A stretch of DNA of 36,791 nt. Origin: Gonapodya sp. JEL0774. Taxonomy: Eukaryota; Monoblepharomycota; Monoblepharidomycetes; Monoblepharidales; Gonapodyaceae. Positions within the stretch are counted from its first letter, which is position 1, and every line of letters begins with the position of its first letter. Location of the stretch: positions 1 through 36,791 of the forward strand of contig JADIIX010000180.1 of NCBI GenBank assembly GCA_027604505.1. The letters are read 5' to 3'. The notes beneath the pieces are model-generated. The model worked only from the letters and a program-made list of their open reading frames with translations, made no database searches and was not told the origin of the DNA. This document shows positions 7,413 to 22,408 of the stretch, one piece after another. The translations under genes were made by a program, and so were the position numbers.

Positions 7413-10400
7413 TCACACCTCAATTGTGCGTCGAGTATTGGAAAGTGCCTTGAATGCTCTTTTACCAGCGTTATCTATGGAGTTCCCTGGAGGAGTGAGA
7501 GGAGAGAGAAGAGAATAGACCATGTGTGTGTGTGTGTATGACTCAGCGACTCTGAGCGAGAGGTCACACTCTGATACTCACCACTGACATTGAGCAACGT
7601 CAAGGTGGAGTTGCTCTTGAGGGCCTCAGCAAGCGCTCTGGCGCCAGCGTCGCCGATCTCGTTGGCTGGACGATGGCGAGAGGAGAGAGGAGAGAAGAGA
7701 CCATGTGTGGGTGTGTGAGTGACTCAGCGACTCTGAGCGAAAGGGAGGCCACACTCTGATACTCACATTCGACATCGAGCAACGTCAAGGTGGAGTTGGT
7801 CTTGAGGACCTCAGAAAGCGCTCTGGCGCCAGCATCACCGATCGAGTTGTCTGGAGTCGAGAGAGGAGAGAGAGACGAAGGATAGGAGAGAGGAGAGAGG
7901 AGACCGTGAGGGTGTGTGTGACTCTGCGAGTCTAAGTGAGAGTGAGCGGGAGGTCACACTCTGATGCTCACAATGAAGGTTAAGTGACGTCACGGTGGAG
8001 TTGGTCTTGAGGGCCTCAGCAAGCGCTCTGGCGCCAGCGTCACCGATGGAGTTGTCTGGAGTCGAGAGAGGAGAGAGGAGACCGTGAGGGTGTGTGTGAC
8101 TCTGCGAGTCTGAGTGAGAGGGAGCGGGAGGTCACACTCTGATACTCACAATGAAGGTTAAGTGACGTCACGGTGGAGTTGGTCTTGAGGACCTCAGCAA
8201 GCGCTCTGGCGCCAGCCTCACCGATCGAATTGGCTGGAGTCGAGAGAGGAGAGAGGAGACGGAGTGTGTGTTCATGTGTGTGACTGAGACTCAGCAACTC
8301 TTGAGCGAGAGGGAGCAGGAAATCACACTCTGATACTCACCACCGACATTGAGCGACGTCAAGGTGAAGTTGGTCTTGAGGGCCTCAGCAAGCGCTCTGG
8401 CGCCAGCCTCACCGAGCGAGTTCCCTGGAGTCAAGAGTGCAGAGAGAGGAGAGAGGAGACGGAGTGTGTGTTCATGTGTGTGACTGAGACTCAGCAACTC
8501 TGAAGTAAGAGCGAGAGGGAGGTCACACTCTGATACTCACTAGTAAGGTTGAGCGACGTCAAGGTGGAGTTGGTCTTGAGGGCCGCAGCAAGCGCTCTGC
8601 CGCCAGCATCACCGATCGAGTTCCCTGGAGTCAAGAGTGCAGAGAGAGGAGAGAGGAGACGGAGTGGGTGTTCATGTGTGTGTGGGGGTGACTCAGCGAC
8701 TCTGAAGCAAGAGCGAGAGGGAGCAGGAAATCACACTCTGAGATTCACTTTCGACATGGAGCGACGTCAAGGTGGAGTTGGTCTTGAGGGCCTCAGCAAG
8801 TGCTCTGCCGCCAGTCTCACCGATCGAGTTCACTGGAGTCAAGGGAGGAGAGAGAAGAGAGGAGACGGTAGGGGTGTTTGTGTGTGTGTGTGTGACTCAG
8901 TGACTCTGGAGCAAGAGCGAGCTCGAGGTCAAACTCTAATACTCACTATAAAGGTTGAGCGACGTCAAAGTGGAGTTGGTCTTGAGGGCCTCAGCAAGCG
9001 CTCTGCCGCCTGCCTCACCGATCGAGTTCCCTGTGGGTTCGGGTCGGCCGGGGTGGTGGTAAAATCATACGATCCAAGACACTTTAACATCACTATGCAT
9101 AACTCGCCATTAGCCTTGCTGGACTCACCCGTCAACGTTAGGGTCCGGACGGCACTATTGTTTTTGAGCGCGTGGGCGATCGCCCTTGCTCCAGCATCTC
9201 CAATTGACTTCCCTTTGGTGGAGGGACGACAGTTGGAGGAGGGGGAACAGGTAAGAAGGGAGTAGAGCGTCCATGTTTCGCGACTACTTGGTGAGAGTTG
9301 AAACCCGCAAATTGAGACACAACTCACACGACAGATCAGGCTTGGTTTCGTTGTTGGCTATGTCCTGCAGCACCTTGGTTAAAGCCCCTGCCCCGGTTCT
9401 TTCTGTGTTTCCGAAATCTTTAGCTAGTAGGTTCGCGATTGTGAAGGCTTCGCGTTAGTACCAAGTGATTTGGGTGGTGTATGCCAACTCACCCCATCTC
9501 CATGTCCCCAGGTCTTTCTCCGATAAAATTCTGGCAGGATCGTTTTTCGGCAGCGTCTTTACCCGGATATGGTGGACACTTTCCAGCAGGGTTTGTGCTA
9601 GTTTTTGCTGCCCTTGGGAATAGTACGCTCTTGCGAGTGCGTGCTGGGCCGCCAGCAGATCCGGATGGTCTTTTGATAGGACTCCTTTCCGAGCAGCAAC
9701 AACAAGCTCCAGCGTGTTCACTGCCTTGTCTACTTGTCCGGTATACTCGTATGCGAGGGCGAGCTCTTGCTGCGCCTCTAGCAGAGGAATGTCCTCTTGG
9801 GTAGAGGTTGGATGTAGAAGACGTCTGAATGTTCTATCCAGTTGGGCAAGCCAACCTCTCGCCAGTTGTTGTCTTCCAAAGACACATGCTTGAAGCCATA
9901 GAGCTGCTTCTGCGAATCTTCCGTCGGAGTTCAAGCACCGCCCAACCTGAAGACAGAGGTCGTATCTCGGTTCCAGCTCCATTCCTTCGCCACTTCCCAG
10001 TACCTTCACGGCGTGCGGGAGGTACTCCCTCCATCGCTCTCGATTGTCCCACTCGTTGGTTGGAAATATTGAGCTGATGTGTGTGATTGCCTCTTCCATC
10101 TTTTTCGACGCAAAGCGCTGGGTGCACAGCCAGTCCCATGCCGCCAGGTGCACAAGACGGTGGAGATCATACACTTCATCCTCTCTGTTGGTTTCCTCTG
10201 AGCGACGTGACACAAATGCGTACCCGATGAGGGTATTGATCGCTCCTTCCATTTTCACGGCACTCCCGGCGGTGGGCAGGATGGTTCGAGGGATGGACTT
10301 CCATTCAATACACGCCATGAAGGCCAAGATGTTTGCCGAGAGAGGATTTTCTTGATTGATCTGCTTGAACGAGACCACCCACGTTTTGGCCACTGCATTT

Positions 10401-11414
10401 TGGGATTCCTCGTAATGTGTTCGGTCACGGAAGTCTTCGCTTAGCAGTTCCATCTTATTTTCTTCCAGCAGTTCCCGATACCTTTTGATTGTAATTGCAT
10501 TAATATTCAGGTACGCTGCTGCTTGGGCGATTGCAAGCGGAAGGTTTGTGAGTTCCTTGAGGAGTTTCGCAGTGTTCAACTGATCCTCGAGCAATACTTT
10601 TCGTGTGAGGGACTTCTTAAACAACTCTGCCGCCTCCTGTCCACTCATCGCTTGCATATTGATGGTATCAACACCTGCGAGGTCCACTCCGACCTTCTGA
10701 GGGCGGGTTGTGAACAGTGTGAGTCCTTGTTCGCTCTGTGGAAGGTAGTAATCAATACCTCGTCCCTGCTTGGGGTGAAACACTACTTCTGCATCGTCGG
10801 CATTGTCTACGATCAAGAGCCACCGTCCGGCTGCGTCCTCGCTCAAATATCGCTTGACAACCTCCTTTATGTCTTCTGTTGCCCCTGTCGTAAGAGAGAT
10901 GCCAACTTTAATAGCCACCTCCTTGCACGCCTGCTCAAAGCTCTCCATGCTGAGTGCAGGAAACCAGAAGATTGAGTAGTCTTGATGTGTCCCCTTCACT
11001 CTGTACGCAAACTCGAGTGCAACTTGTGTCTTTCCCACTCCACCGAGTCCCACAAGAGCTGCCCTCTGACAATCCTCATCGTCAAAAAGTTTTCTGTTCA
11101 AGGTCGCGAGGACGTGATCCCGCCCCACAAACTGTTTGTTCCTTGAAAAGGGAATGTAGTAGTGGGGACGGGAGGAGCCGGGATTCGCATCAACTCTTGA
11201 TTGGGAAGCACTGATGACATTCATGATATTGCAGCGGTCACAGGTACGGAAAGGAAGCATGCGGACCCTTGAATGGTGGAGCTTACCTCGAGCCTTGGTT
11301 GTAAGAATTGCCGATCTGAGCGCGGCCACCTTCAATATGCTGGGAGTGTATTGTTATGTTGGTGACGTTACTCGTCGGTGCAAGCGAATTTGGAAAGGTT
11401 GTATCTCCCAGCAT
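7413..11414 (-). CDS. NLR: HET-s-type amyloid motif, NB-ARC, TPR, LRR
   Basis: The model has 13 exons and 923 aa, with no internal stop. Exon 1 (11414-11287) carries a HET-s-like motif, IEGGRAQIGNSYNQGS (about residues 28-43). The large exon 11210-9493 encodes NB-ARC: HYYIPFSRNKQFVGR, P-loop GLGGVGKT (97-104), Walker B LLIVDNADD (174-182), sensor FTTR (210-213), LPLA (266-269) and the MHD-like YDLHRLVHLA (about 390-399). Two TPR-like units follow (about 518-605). Then come 11 short exons: 9423-9328, nine of 84 bp (first 9212-9129, last 7665-7582), and 7486-7413. Each encodes one RI-type LRR with the theme GEAGARALAEALKTN. All LRR junctions are phase 1. By family analogy it is a STAND ATPase that oligomerises on ligand binding; the N-terminal motif would template amyloid folding in the neighbouring HeLo effector. 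LRRs on a fungal NLR are unusual. The acceptor near 9423 has an alternative at 9417. Confidence 0.9.
7582..9212 (-). repeat. tandem array of one-LRR exon plus intron units
   Basis: Nine 84-bp exons on the minus strand lie at 9129-9212, 8947-9030, 8749-8832, 8541-8624, 8341-8424, 8150-8233, 7972-8055, 7767-7850 and 7582-7665. Spacing is about 178-208 bp. The introns are homologous to each other as well: most begin GTGAGTATCAGAGTG and end with a pyrimidine tract and CCAG. They contain (GT)n and GA/CT-rich stretches. The array therefore grew by duplication of whole exon-intron units, not by exon gain alone. Each exon starts two bases into a codon and ends after the first base of one, so units can be added or lost without a frameshift. 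Confidence 0.9.
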
Positions 11415-11708
11415 GGGACCGATGGGATTGGGACTGGGACGGGGGTTGGGAGGTGCCAGAGAGGGAAGACAAGGATTTGTTGGGGAATTGAAAAGGCGCA
11501 CGGTCCACACAAGAGCAGAATGGCCGAACCAACAAGGATCAATGGTTTGGAGTCCTTGGAAAGGGTCACGCGACAGGAAACCTTGCTTCGGCCAGGCCTT
11601 GGGTGGCACAGCCACTATGGCACCCCCCCATCTAGCAGAGCAAACTGGACAGAACAACTTCAATCACCAGAGGATTATTATCGCCCTCCGTTTTCACCTC
11701 CCACACTC
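11415..11708. promoter_or_regulatory. divergent intergenic region between NLR and HeLo copy 2
   Basis: About 294 bp separate the NLR start codon from the HeLo start position, closely matching the 297 bp in module 1. A minus-strand frame stays open upstream of the chosen NLR ATG as far as 11663, so a longer N-terminus is possible. The ATG at 11414 was preferred because it sits just before the conserved motif region and because the paralogous stub has an in-frame ATG at a comparable place. Co-regulation of the pair is inferred from the layout. Confidence 0.45.
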
Positions 11709-12115
11709 GTGGCAGAGGTTTTCGGGATCGTCTGTGGCGCTGTCAGTATCGCCGCTACCTTCAGCACCTGTCACAAATGCTTCAACTACGTCCAAGTCGG
11801 TCGCGGTTTCGACAAGGACATCCAAACGGAGACGCTCAACCTCGCATTGCTCAGTCGCGGTTTCGACAAGGACATCCAAACGGAGACGCTCAACCTCGCA
11901 TTGCTCAAGCTTCGCCTTTCGCGTTGGGGTGAGGCTGTCCACATTTACGACAAAGGCGGTTCAAATTTCAGTACGGGCTCCGCAAAGCTGTTGGAGAGAC
12001 TGAACTTTTGATGCTATGTTTCGGCTCACGAAAGGGGTCAGCTGAGAGGAAAGACGTGCACGTAGTGAACGATTCACATATGGAAAGCGGAAGAGCCCAC
12101 GTCAACACTGCGTAC
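11709..12115 (+). pseudogene. HET-s-like HeLo effector, copy 2 (decayed)
   Basis: The frame from 11709 encodes the HeLo N-terminus: AEVFGIVCGAVSIAATF, CFNYVQVGR, and LKLRLSRWGEAVHIYDK. The start codon is GTG where copy 1 has ATG. A 54-bp in-frame tandem duplication repeats 18 residues (11800-11907). Most of the HeLo core is missing after GGSNFSTG, and the frame stops at 12009-12011. In another frame at 12050-12115 lies DVHVVNDSHMESGRAHVNTAY. This resembles R1 of copy 1 (VHIENTEVVDNAKMRL) and the NLR N-terminal motif (IHSQHIEGGRAQIGNSY). The gene therefore once linked HeLo to a HET-s-type motif and sits divergently beside the intact NLR. An undetected intron might rescue part of it, but start loss and core loss argue for a pseudogene. 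Confidence 0.8.
11800..11907 (+). repeat. 54-bp perfect tandem duplication
   Basis: The unit at 11800-11853 is repeated without change at 11854-11907. It is in frame with the HeLo coding sequence and duplicates SRGFDKDIQTETLNLALL. Perfect identity implies a recent event. It is absent from copy 1. Confidence 0.95.
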
Positions 12116-12360
12116 ATAAGAGGAAAGAAGATAAAGCAGAATGTGGAGCTGTTGGACATTAAACAACCACCGAGATTGGCTCACAAGAGCCCAAAGTGCA
12201 CGCACGAATGATACTGAGATCTCTGCGAGATACAGACTGGCCACCAAGGTTCGTAAACTACAATTACTATCCGAGATCAAGCACCCGATCGGTACGAAAA
12301 CACCATCCCGCCCCTCCTGGACTTCTCCTCCATCGGGTGAATTTTGTGTGCGAAGGCGTC

Positions 12361-12455
12361 GGGACCTCATTGGAGCGGAGGGAGTTGTGCGGAGACACTA
12401 TGCGATCGGGGTCGGTAGGATGTGGGAAGTAAGAGTAAACGGGCGAGTGGGATGA
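12361..12455 (+). other. conserved short reading frame, copy a
   Basis: The frame RRDLIGAEGVVRRHYAIGVG, continuing RMWEVR, is shared with the ORF ending at 28730. Sequence upstream of RRD differs between the copies, so this is a fragment. GTAAGAG directly after GRMWE could be a donor, with an acceptor TGTAAG or CAG near 12494. No known family was recognised. Confidence 0.25.
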
Positions 12456-12950
12456 ACGAATGGGGGACTTGGGACGCGCACTACTCCTTGTAAGATCCTC
12501 ACTTTATCCTTCTTGCTTGACATCTTCTCCTTCCTCCATTTTGTCGTCGAAGGGAGTGAGAAAGTTGCTGTGCATTGTCACAGAGGTGAACAGACAATGC
12601 AGACGTCGGTTTTTGGTAGGGGGTAGGGGCCGCAGGGGAAGCGGGGAGCAGGTGCAGACGGACTTTACTTCTTGTTCCACGTATACCATGCTACGTCTGC
12701 TCTCTCCCATTGCACTGCATTTTCCATCTCATGTTTCCTTCCCACCTCCCCACTTCTCCACTCAGACCATTGCCGTGCGTCCCGGAATCACTGATTACCT
12801 CCCAGAAACCCCTGATAAGCCGTATCATTATTCTGTGTAACTAGCCCAAGTATCCTACCAGATGTATCTGCCCTGGAGTCTGCCGGGAGGAGGATAGATG
12901 GGATGCAAAGTGCGGAATTGAAAACGGTGCGGGGTGGTGGGTATTTCACA

Positions 12951-19503: not shown

Positions 19504-21986
19504 ATGTCGGACGGGCGTGCCGGAGGTGATCCCTGAACACAGTGTTTCTCCGGATCACACTTGTCAACTTACCATCCACACCCCTCTACAACTCCAGATG
19601 GCTCCAAGGCAAGACGCCTGCGTTCCGACGAGTATACCGTTGGGTGGATATGCGCTCTGCCGACGGAGCTCGCGGCTGCCCGGGCAATGTTTGATGAGGA
19701 ATACCAACCACTCGACCGGGACATGAGGGACCCGAACATCTACTCTTTCGGACGGATGGGGGTTCACAATGTTGTCGTCGCTTGTCTTCCGGCCGGAAAT
19801 CGCGGGACAAACTCTGCCGCAGCGGTTGCGAACAACCTCGGCCGGACTTTCGATTCCCTCCAGTTCGGCCTCATGGTGGGCATCGGAGGCGGCGTTCCCA
19901 GCCCAGAAGCAGACATTCGTCTGGGAGACGTAGTTGTCAGTCAGCCCTTTGAAACCTACGGCGGCGTGGTGCAATACGACTTCGGGGAACACACTTGGGA
20001 GGGGTTCCGGCGAACGGGATATCTCAACAGTCCGCCGCGTTTGCTTCTCAATGCCGTTAGCCAACTTCAAGCCAATCATCTTGCTGGAGATATCCGCCTC
20101 GCGGAACACCTTGAGAAGCTTAGACGGCTTCCAGTCTTCCATCGCGAGAGTGCCGGTCCAGACATCTTATTCCATCCCACATACAATCACAAACGAGGGC
20201 TTTGGTGCGAATCGTGTAGAGTCGATATGCAGCTCCCTCGTCCCGCTCGATCTCATGTAGAGCCCGTGGTTCACTACGGTTTGATTGCATCCGGAAACCA
20301 GGACATGAAGGATGGGGTGCAGCGGGACAGGGTCAGCAAAGAGCTCGGAGGAGTCCTGTGTTTTGAAATGGAAGCGGCAGGACTTATGAATCATTTCCCA
20401 TGCCTCATCATCCGTGGTATCTCCGACTATGCGGACTCACACAAAAACACCAGGTGGCAAGGGTATTCAGCAGGCACAGCTGCAGCATGTGCCAAGGAAC
20501 TCCTGTTGATGATACCAAGGACTGATCCGGGAACACGAGGTACGCGCCTCTATTTTGCTGTCGTGCCTCGCACTGTATCATCCTTATCTGTTGTAACTAA
20601 ACTGATCACATCCTCACGGTCATTGATTCAACAGCCTACATCCCTTTTCCACGGAATCCCCGTTTTGTGGGCCGCACATCACAGCTCCAACAGCTGGCAC
20701 AGAAGCTGCTGCACAACGAGGAATGCCGGCAGATGGCGCTCGTCGGTCTCGGCGGAGTCGGGAAGACTCAAGTCGCTCTGGAGTTTGCTTACCAAGTGAA
20801 GCAAGAGCATGCCGAGAGAGGGCGCTCTGTGTTTTGGTTGCCCGCAGTCAGCATGGAAAGTTTCGAACAAGCATGCAGGGAAATTGCAAGAACACTGGGC
20901 ATACCTTCGGAAAAGGATGATGACATCAAGGTAGTGGTCAAGCAGCATCTGAGTACGAAGAAAGCCGGTGTCTGGCTCATCATCCTCGACAACGCAGACG
21001 ACATCGGGCTTCTGACTGGTTCCAAGGGATCTTGGGGTATTTTACACTACCTTCCGCAGAGCGAGGATGGGCTCTCTGTGTATACAACCCGCACTCGAGA
21101 TGTTCCCTTGTCACTTGGAGTGGCCAATGTTATTGATGTGGACGCCATGGACAAACAGGAAGCAAAAGAACTACTTCAAATGTCCCTCATGCGCAAGGAG
21201 CTGCTCAACGACGATGCAAGCGTGGACAAATTCCTGGACGAACTTACATATCTTCCATTGGCACTCTCTCAGGCAGCAGCATATCTCAACAAAATCGAGA
21301 AAATCTCTATTGCAGATTATCTCGGCATGCTGCAAAGCACACAGGTGGCCGACGTGCTGAGCAGGGAATTCGTCAACATCCAGCGTTACTCAGGATCGAG
21401 CAATGCTGTGGCAACAACGTGGCTGGTTTCATTCAACCAGATCCGCACAAACGATCTTCTAGCAGGGGATCTTCTGGCATTTATGTCGTGTATCGAGTCT
21501 AAGGCGATCCCTCGAGCTATCTTGCCTGCGTTGGAGTCAAGATTCAAAATGGAAGATGCTATTGGCACCCTTACTGACTACGCCTTTGTGTCGCCTCGGA
21601 AGGACCAGGACATGTACGACCTCCACCGGTTGGTGCATCTTGCGGCTGGAGACTGGCTCCGCATACAGGGCCTCACGGCAGAAAAGACAAGAGAAGCAAT
21701 CCAGCATATCGCGACAATTTTTCACACAGACAATTGGGACCAGAGGAATGTGTGGAGGGCGTACATCCCGCACGCCGTGAAAGTGCTGGGGAGCAGCGAA
21801 GGCAAGGAATTGGCGGAACGATACGAGCTTTGCCTGTGGATCGGGCGATGCTTGCAGACGGATGGCAGAGTGCCAGAAGCCGTGATGTGGCTCCAGAAAT
21901 GCGACATCGGAAGACGGGACGAGTTGAAACTGGCCAAGTACCACCCGGACCGTCTCACCTCGCAACTCAACCTCGCTTACGCATAG
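19504..21986 (+). CDS. PNP-type phosphorylase, NB-ARC, TPR NLR, truncated in the TPR array
   Basis: Three exons (19504-19525, 19598-20539, 20635-21986) with phase-1 introns of 72 and 95 bp give 771 aa. The tiny first exon (MSDGRAG) was chosen because its GTGATC donor and the CTCCAG acceptor restore an open frame into YTVGWICALPTELAAARAM. Residues 18-312 are a PNP/UDP-phosphorylase-like domain with VGIGGGVPS, LGDVVVSQP, the nucleosidase signature CFEMEAAG and IRGISDYADSHKN. NB-ARC follows: AYIPFPRNPRFVGR, P-loop GLGGVGKT (359-366), Walker B LIILDNADD (436-444), LPLALSQAAAYL and YDLHRLVHLA. The C-terminus enters TPR repeats. The family is a common fungal NLR type; the phosphorylase is thought to act on nucleosides or nucleotides as the effector. 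A TAG at 21984-21986 ends the frame in a TPR. The catalytic and ATPase motifs look intact. Confidence 0.88.
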
Positions 21987-22408
21987 CAGGCAAACGGGCA
22001 GGTGGGCAAGGCCGTCACGCTACTGGAGCACGTCGTCGCCGTCCGTGAGCGAGTTTTGGCCGAGGACCACCCGGACCGTCCCGCCTCCCAGAACAACCTC
22101 GCTTCCGCGTACCAGGCCAATGGGCAGGTGGGCAAGGCCGTCACGCTGCTGGAGCACGTCGTCGAGTCCATGAGCAGGTTTTGGCTGAGGACCACCCGTC
22201 CCGTCTCACCTCGCAGGCCAGCCTCGCATACGTCAAACAGGCCATGGCGGGGGCGGCTCTCTCGGCAGAAGCGGGTGCGGTCAATGGTGGTGAGGATGCA
22301 CGGCATGGGAGTGTGAGGTCCACAGTGGGTGGTAGTGGAAGCCAAGTGGCGTCGGCGCCCACTTGGTGGCGGACCATCACCACATCGGAAGAAGAGCAAG
22401 AGGAGTGA
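21987..22408 (+). pseudogene. stranded TPR repeats of the phosphorylase NLR
   Basis: The same frame continues straight after the TAG with QANGQVGKAVTLLEHVVAVR and AEDHPDRPASQNNLASAYQ, then a second near-identical unit. The repeat period is 126 bp (42 residues, as in TPR_10/kinesin light chain-type repeats). By comparison with the neighbouring unit, the stop stands where a Tyr codon (TAC) is expected. Near 22165 the frame shifts by one base, and the coding theme continues in another frame as AEDHPSRLTSQASLAYVKQA, ending at 22408 after an acidic tail. So one nonsense change and one frameshift separate this part from the gene. Confidence 0.8.

Follow-up and report, generated by a model that had tools for sequence, protein, structure and literature searches.

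A Gonapodya family of NB-ARC, TPR and LRR receptors with HRAM-like N-terminal motifs, probably once paired with HeLo effectors

HET-S and NWD2 of Podospora anserina, together with the families that bear HET-s-related amyloid motifs (HRAMs), form the closest described counterpart of the system reported here. In this counterpart, a NOD-like receptor (NLR) composed of a NACHT domain and WD repeats carries one HRAM repeat at its N-terminus, and the divergently oriented neighbouring gene (PMC3321046) encodes a HeLo protein with two such repeats at its C-terminus. Where HeLo proteins carry HRAM pairs, the two repeats are separated by loops of 6-18 residues, and an aromatic end is frequent (PMC4518210). 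In the reviews and surveys consulted, NLR amyloid signalling is described in Ascomycota, and a case has been made for Basidiomycota. Here, we analyzed a stretch of 36,791 bp from Gonapodya sp. JEL0774 (the window), which is the complete contig C180 of a 25.0-Mb genome assembly and which contains an NLR gene with an HRAM-like first exon next to a fragment of a divergent HeLo gene. NCBI places the organism in Monoblepharomycota, within chytridiomyceta and outside Dikarya, and thereby settles a point on which an earlier, sequence-only reading of this DNA had made the wider significance of the locus depend.

Parts of the locus also resemble other systems. NB-ARC/TPR (tetratricopeptide repeat) receptors of the STAND (signal transduction ATPases with numerous domains) class adjoin HeLo-type effectors as in Gonapodya, but they bear PFD-like or PP motifs, whereas the Gonapodya motif is HRAM-like (R15, G19) and leucine-rich repeats (LRRs) follow the TPRs (PMC3321046, PMC12881547). 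HRAM-like N-termini outside Ascomycota occur on NACHT NLRs of Sphaerobolus stellatus, yet this fungus belongs to Basidiomycota, still within Dikarya, and its shortest NLR-HeLo distance is 95 kb (PMC9815663). NB-LRR and NOD-LRR receptors of plants and animals share with Gonapodya an LRR array behind a nucleotide-binding switch, but the Gonapodya proteins have TPRs between the two and an amyloid-type N-terminus, and their LRR array was probably joined independently. Fungal HELL-kinase proteins and MLKL (PMC12881547) combine a helical N-terminal part with a kinase, as does a Gonapodya gene described below; the latter differs in having a predicted additional HRAM-like exon ahead and a helical part with no MLKL chain among its listed matches.

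NLRs are known in some Chytridiomycota and Mucoromycota (PMC12258605) and in Mortierellomycota (PMC11291939), and MLKL-family homologues have been reported in Glomeromycotina (PMC8778642). PMC4986451 and PMC12881547 state that LRRs had not been detected on NLRs of fungi. The survey in PMC12258605 counted LRRs among the repeats and held ten Chytridiomycota, some of them with NLRs; its accessible text reports no LRR receptor there. In the accessible parts of the open-licence literature, we found no report of HRAM or HeLo systems outside Dikarya. Two features appear to be new: LRRs on fungal NLRs, and an HRAM-like exon whose position would allow in-frame splicing to a kinase with a helical domain.

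In what follows, W1, W2 and W3 denote the NLR loci in the window, other C-numbers denote contigs (L012 being the C338 locus), and P-numbers denote database proteins; the window NLR protein in the database is HDU93_002786 (P0001). The N-terminal HRAM-like motif of a receptor is designated r0, and the two HRAM-like repeats at a HeLo C-terminus are designated r1 and r2. Our preferred explanation, which we regard as probable, is that W1 is a member of a Gonapodya NLR family (HRAM-like r0, NB-ARC and TPR, with LRRs in W1 and some others) with HET-S/NWD2-type signalling outside Dikarya, and that it was once paired with a HeLo effector that is now dead. This explanation draws on a predicted first exon with kept splice signals, on the receptor domains, on purifying selection in the receptor body, and on HRAM-like tails of the HeLo relics in two sister pairs. 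The likeness to HET-S/NWD2 extends in these sister pairs to two C-terminal repeats, a linker and an aromatic end. The Gonapodya system differs in its NB-ARC, TPR and LRR receptor, in a motif that is often off-consensus at position 8, in its decayed effectors and in its zoosporic host.

The first exon of the W1 receptor (11287..11414, minus strand) reads MLGDTTFPNSLAPTSNVTNITIHSQHIEGGRAQIGNSYNQGS and includes the r0 motif NITIHSQHIEGGRAQIGNSY at 11301-11360. Its donor, GTAAGC, is kept in all six aligned copies (W1, W2, C338, C374, C54 and C160), and the acceptor, ATCAG, is intact in five of them, the exception being C338 with ATCAT. Among the five is C54, whose NB-ARC exon differs from that of W1 at about 70% of synonymous sites, yet whose splice signals are kept. 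Intron 1 (11211..11286, minus strand; 76 nt, phase 2) was delimited from the alignment of the copies, with coordinates set by hand, and the predicted splice puts exon 1 in frame with exon 2. As claimed in the sequence-only reading, exon 1 is therefore well supported as part of the NLR gene by its kept splice signals. Exon 2 (9493..11210, minus strand), an open frame whose 3' end was placed by hand from the model of the paralogue P0002, matches NB-ARC (3.4e-10) and TPR_12 (9.5e-10) in Pfam. The ratio of nonsynonymous to synonymous substitution rates (dN/dS) for this exon is 0.35 against C338 and 0.29 against C374, and receptor bodies gave 0.19-0.35 across comparisons, which points to purifying selection.

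Exon 2 is followed by LRR exons (7582..9212, minus strand), with one 28-residue LRR per 84-nt exon; these were located by a pattern scan and tblastn and their ends were set by hand. They lie at about 9212-9129, 9030-8947, 8832-8749, 8624-8541, 8424-8341, 8233-8150, 8055-7972, 7848-7771 and 7665-7582. The pattern scan gave eight units of 28 residues, seven of which have the donor at a constant offset, and the unit at 7848-7771 was added by tblastn. Scanned by themselves, these stretches fell short of the Pfam cut-off; in the spliced database models of the paralogues P0002 and P0004, LRR_6 scored 2.5e-11 and 5.7e-23. With NB-ARC, TPR_12 and the LRR_6 of its spliced paralogues, W1 qualifies as an NLR, but not as NWD2 proper, which has NACHT and WD repeats. 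LRRs had been proposed to stand in place of WD repeats; they are indeed present, but this description is incomplete, since the receptor consists of NB-ARC, TPR and LRR. LRRs encoded at one repeat per 84-nt exon, with near-identical splice sites, also occur in the paralogues L012, L014 and P0004. More LRR exons lie close to the other contig end (34557-35150, minus strand), with no NB-ARC gene recognised ahead of them within the window.

Searches of the assembly with the Gonapodya protein P0033 (15 matches) revealed 14 NLR loci, nine of which bear r0: W1, W2, C338, C374, C160 (a relic), C54, C171, C260 and C112. The r0 exon is thus found at eight further NLR loci beyond W1. LRRs follow the TPRs in W1, C338, C374 and C171. 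The exon 1 of W2 (1811..1950, minus strand; E 4.4e-15) includes r0 NIIIHSQHIEGDRVHIGNSN, and the body of this NLR survives only to about 1599. The assembly is incomplete: for P0033, which is encoded on a contig of 9,776 bp, the best match there reaches only 59% identity. Statements of absence made here are limited accordingly.

HeLo relics with HRAM-like tails were detected at two sister loci. In C338, the tail (L012:4692-4883) holds two HRAM-like repeats in one open frame and is also present in the database protein P0121; the HeLo end consists, in order, of KGIHIENTEVVDSAKMLLGNVF, GRGLQGHAVLPQGN, SSIDFGKQRVGFKAKVHMRDSF and VTFWN, which we read as r1, a 14-residue linker, r2 and an aromatic end in the published HRAM register. 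In W2, the HeLo relic (2248..3118, plus strand) begins with ATG at 2248 and has several frame changes and stops. Its tail (2919-3118), about 9 kb from W1, is of the C338 type, with r1 from about 2922 and r2 at 3029-3094, but r1 is disrupted by a difference of one base and r2 by a TAA; r2 keeps G19. Judged by these sister copies, the former head-to-head HeLo effector of W1 would have borne two C-terminal HRAM-like repeats, an arrangement like that of het-S/nwd2.

The only outside HeLo match, among 86 candidates, was the 'small s protein' of Xylaria telfairii (P0123). Two repeats form the end of this protein, and an alignment to the HET-s prion domain (PDB 2kj3, E 0.046) was obtained for the second. 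All 10-mers in six frames from the window and from 17 loci (226,930 in total) were compared with positions 13-22 of these two repeats, positions that were chosen after the first alignments had been seen. The W1 r0 10-mer (11301-11330) ranked first and that of W2 HeLo r2 (3065-3094) second, followed in order by C171 NLR exon 1, a chance match in L014, C322 exon 1, C54 r0 and C338 HeLo r1; six of the seven best 10-mers are therefore receptor or kinase exon-1 motifs or HeLo tails. In a first run, which comprised 170,743 10-mers and whose protein background omitted P0121-P0123, the C171 exon ranked third before it was known as an exon; it was later shown to be exon 1 of the C171 NLR. The published HRAM positions are hydrophobic at 5, 8, 10, 16 and 18, with R/K at 15 and G at 19 (PMC4518210). 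All seven are matched by the r0 of C171 and C260, and six by those of C322, C160 and both C112 motifs (C112a and C112b), compared with five and seven for the Xylaria repeats. A sevenfold fit was seen in 8.7e-5 of six-frame 19-mers and 1.0e-5 of protein 19-mers. C338 r1 fits six positions. In Pfam scans, PF17108 ('N-terminal small S protein of HET') was the sole match of the r0 of C160 (E 0.0061), W2 (E 0.026) and C338 (E 0.031) and came second, behind another family, for C112b (E 0.26), and four of its seven best places genome-wide (E up to 10) were r0 exons. As to whether receptor and effector motifs belong to one HRAM group, the alignments give a mixed picture: C54 r0 can be aligned gap-free with C338 r1 (p 0.04), but C338 r0 aligns poorly with its own tail (p 0.42).

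These data have to be weighed against a different view of exon 1, which we consider somewhat unlikely, namely that it is a conserved NLR leader used in another homotypic contact, in localisation or in translation, and that its likeness to HRAM reflects convergence of short G/R/N-rich peptides. Several observations speak against HRAM relationship, and among them the sub-threshold profile scores, the weak alignments of r0 with the tails, the ungapped fit of W1 and the dN/dS of exon 1 also favour such a leader. All PF17108 matches of r0 are below the gathering cut-off of 24.3 bits, six of the ten r0 peptides scanned, including that of W1, have none, and PF11558 was never listed; the test by a significant HET-s/HRAM profile score was therefore not passed outright. 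The r0 of W1 fits only four of the seven positions ungapped, or six with a gap of one residue (the residue taken as lost is still present in C54 and C160), those of C338 and C54 fit five, and position 8 is polar in eight of ten r0. Against the Xylaria repeats, the r0 10-mers of C338 and C374 score 16.5 (ranks 27-28), C260 15.0, C112b 13.0, C160 11.0, W2 9.5 and C112a 4.0. Pairwise alignments of r0 with HeLo tails are weak (W1 with the C338 tail, p 0.043, and with the Xylaria tail, p 0.037; C54 with the Xylaria tail, p 0.086; C338 and W2 with the Xylaria tail, p 0.83 and 0.93). On the effector side, C338 r2 fits five positions and has no G19, the C338 tail aligns with the Xylaria tail at p 0.062, and the HeLo tail showed no PDB sequence match to HET-s. 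The dN/dS of exon 1 varies from 0.27 to 1.45, and purifying selection is not consistent. A leader, on the other hand, does not account for like motifs in C338 and W2 at the C-terminal end of HeLo, where no N-terminal leader would lie, for the complete fit of C171 and C260, or for HeLo adjacency. We regard the evidence that r0 is an HRAM relative as good but not conclusive. Of the N-terminal amyloid motif proposed earlier, a HET-s-like motif that ranks first of all 10-mers stands, whereas no profile score of the r0 peptides reaches a curated cut-off.

It is very improbable that the HeLo gene at 11.7-12.1 kb encodes a functional effector and pairs, through the motif at 12050-12115, with the adjoining NLR. 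What adjoins the W1 NLR, in divergent orientation, is a HeLo fragment (11709..11984, plus strand) delimited by Pfam, a three-frame reading and comparison with P0123; it matches PF14479 (E 7.4e-16, 59 bits against a cut-off of 23.2) in its N-terminal part only. About 92 codons are left, the start position is GTG (ATG in the W2 copy), and there is a 54-nt tandem duplication (11800-11853 / 11854-11907). The HeLo frame stops at 12009-12011, and beyond 11982-11986 the sequence no longer resembles the sister copies of HeLo. From 11985, the sequence belongs to a dispersed repeat (11985..12361, plus strand), with a C171 copy 80% identical over 377 bp, further copies on C159, C247 and C332, and a left edge at exactly 11985 in both the C171 and the C247 comparison. 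The letters HVVNDSHMESGRAHVNTAY, which had been read as an effector motif, are present near 12050-12115, but in a different frame and within this repeat. Mismatches between the W1 and C171 repeats are even over the three codon positions in the motif frame (13/62, 12/62 and 14/62), so that no coding constraint is visible and the repeat is apparently non-coding; at W1, the place of two C-terminal HRAM repeats is taken by repeat DNA. The 10-mer at 12086-12115 ranks eighth (tied) of the 226,930, among chance matches, and the C171 copy lacks the motif likeness (p 0.44). In favour of a working effector, the local alignment of W1 exon 1 with the 12050-12115 peptide has a score of 48, reached in none of 3000 shuffles, for a pair picked after the fact, and C54 r0 also aligns with this stretch (p 0.0017). 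In view of the repeat and the even mismatches, we rejected HVVNDSHMESGRAHVNTAY as a HeLo tail. The divergent HeLo neighbour that had been reported is therefore real as an N-terminus, but it is truncated near 11984, can hardly work, and its supposed motif is spurious. The larger claim of an effector/receptor system homologous to HET-S/NWD2 retains the receptor, the LRRs and the HeLo neighbour and loses its W1 effector-side evidence, for which C338 and W2 offer better tails.

No intact HeLo effector was found in the incomplete assembly, and the copies at W1, W2 and C338 all look broken, which also tells against the system we favour; on these grounds, the W1 pair is considered a fossil. The genome search for the HeLo family gave five matches at four loci, none of them on C374, and the longest single-frame match covered profile positions 7-94 of 205. 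The HeLo bodies of C338 and W2 have one stop and one frame change in common and thus were probably dead before their duplication. Sequencing error was rejected for these common lesions and is possible for those confined to one copy; unmodelled introns may also underlie the broken look of the HeLo copies. An additional HeLo N-terminus lies at C150:5480-5665 (minus strand), with no NLR match within the 10 kb read around it.

If the system is of the type we favour, its mechanism can be modelled on het-S/nwd2 (PMC3321046, PMC10197012); splicing, amyloid formation, templating and cell death are inferred. A ligand would bind the LRR/TPR end of the receptor and the NB-ARC domains would oligomerise, whereupon the r0 strands would stack into a small beta-solenoid. 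This would template the matching repeats of the effector, whose membrane-attacking helical domain would be freed and damage the membrane. Since the W1 receptor shows a dN/dS of 0.29-0.35 though its neighbour looks dead, it probably still does something, perhaps via another partner. If it still signals, W1 would act in trans, on an effector not found here or on a protein such as the C322 kinase. Receptors with an HRAM-like motif and LRRs in Monoblepharomycota would extend the known range of the system past Dikarya and show fungi to have a receptor layout of the plant/animal kind. They would also allow tests of two questions: did fungi inherit amyloid templating from their ancestors or gain it by transfer, and does the C322 kinase represent a second type of partner acting downstream?

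The C322 gene has an r0 exon (C322:8758-8880 at L065, minus strand) that is 80% identical to the C171 r0 exon and is followed by an apparent 88-nt GC-AG intron. Removal of this intron would join the exon in frame to a long open reading frame (ORF; 742 codons open) whose N-terminal sequence is helical and which includes a protein kinase domain (1.6e-37), where HRD and DFG motifs can be read. The helical part, a possible four-helix bundle of the MLKL/HeLo type, gave a low-confidence helical model (predicted local distance difference test score, pLDDT, 50.5), and no MLKL chain was among the matches listed. Five further genome matches to this part were detected; in the three that were inspected, including two that have kinase ORFs, no convincing r0 was seen within 1.5 kb upstream. 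A speculative and on present evidence unlikely extension is that the amyloid-motif exon is a plug-in cassette, carried by NB-ARC-TPR-LRR receptors, in two copies at the other end of HeLo pore-formers, and by the C322 kinase, with NLR templating feeding directly into a RIPK/MLKL-like kinase. If true, a circuit resembling the necrosome would exist beyond animals and Dikarya, and its LRR receptors would be of the plant/animal type.

The origin of the genes is a separate matter. Transfer from Ascomycota to Gonapodya is a serious possibility, if short of even, and is compatible with the system proposed for W1; were it so, the genes would say little on the age of fungal amyloid signalling. Among the best 120 of 1774 NLR matches, the named non-Gonapodya relatives are all Ascomycota, and the only outside HeLo match is that of Xylaria. 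However, in a tree of 41 chosen NB-ARC regions (7 Gonapodya, 24 named-fungus and 10 metagenome proteins; root not fixed, and C233, C247, C260, C380, C112 and C191 not included), the seven Gonapodya NLRs all fall to the same side of one branch (95/92), where their neighbours are metagenome proteins and no named ascomycete group encloses them. The same ascomycete-like best matches might point to contamination of the assembly by an ascomycete, but we hold this to be extremely unlikely: ten r0 loci are spread over nine contigs, including one of 146 kb, with divergent paralogues, the dispersed repeat is common to several contigs, and the named ascomycete matches are at most 48% identical among the best 120 of 1774.

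Several further observations concern the NLR loci and the window. Synonymous differences between W1 and C54 amount to about 7/26 in exon 1 and 69% in exon 2 (p 1e-5), and this far lower divergence of exon 1 suggests that the r0 exon was exchanged between paralogues. When W1 11287-11414 is compared with L016 4916-5047, the close likeness covers exon 1 and runs into the first part of intron 1, and it far exceeds that of the NB-ARC exon at synonymous sites. The C112 NLR (L054, C112:66000-71000) has its two r0-like motifs in tandem in a single open frame. At four of the 14 NLR loci, a PNP_UDP_1 ORF precedes NB-ARC (W3, 1.2e-7; C233, 9.9e-8; C380, 8.3e-9; C247, 1.2e-7), and the broken locus C191 has neither r0 nor PNP_UDP_1. 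W3 (19540..22316, plus strand), assigned by Pfam, likeness to P0001 and the tree, has all its parts together, i.e., the PNP_UDP_1 ORF, a second ORF with NB-ARC (4.2e-11) and a TPR-like end; no r0 was seen there, it resembles P0001 up to 22250, and in the drawn tree it branches off first within the Gonapodya group. Finally, the window contains duplicated blocks of about 96% identity at 12352-12500 and 28627-28775, and the likeness of the two ORF sets suggests that this duplication runs on for some kilobases.

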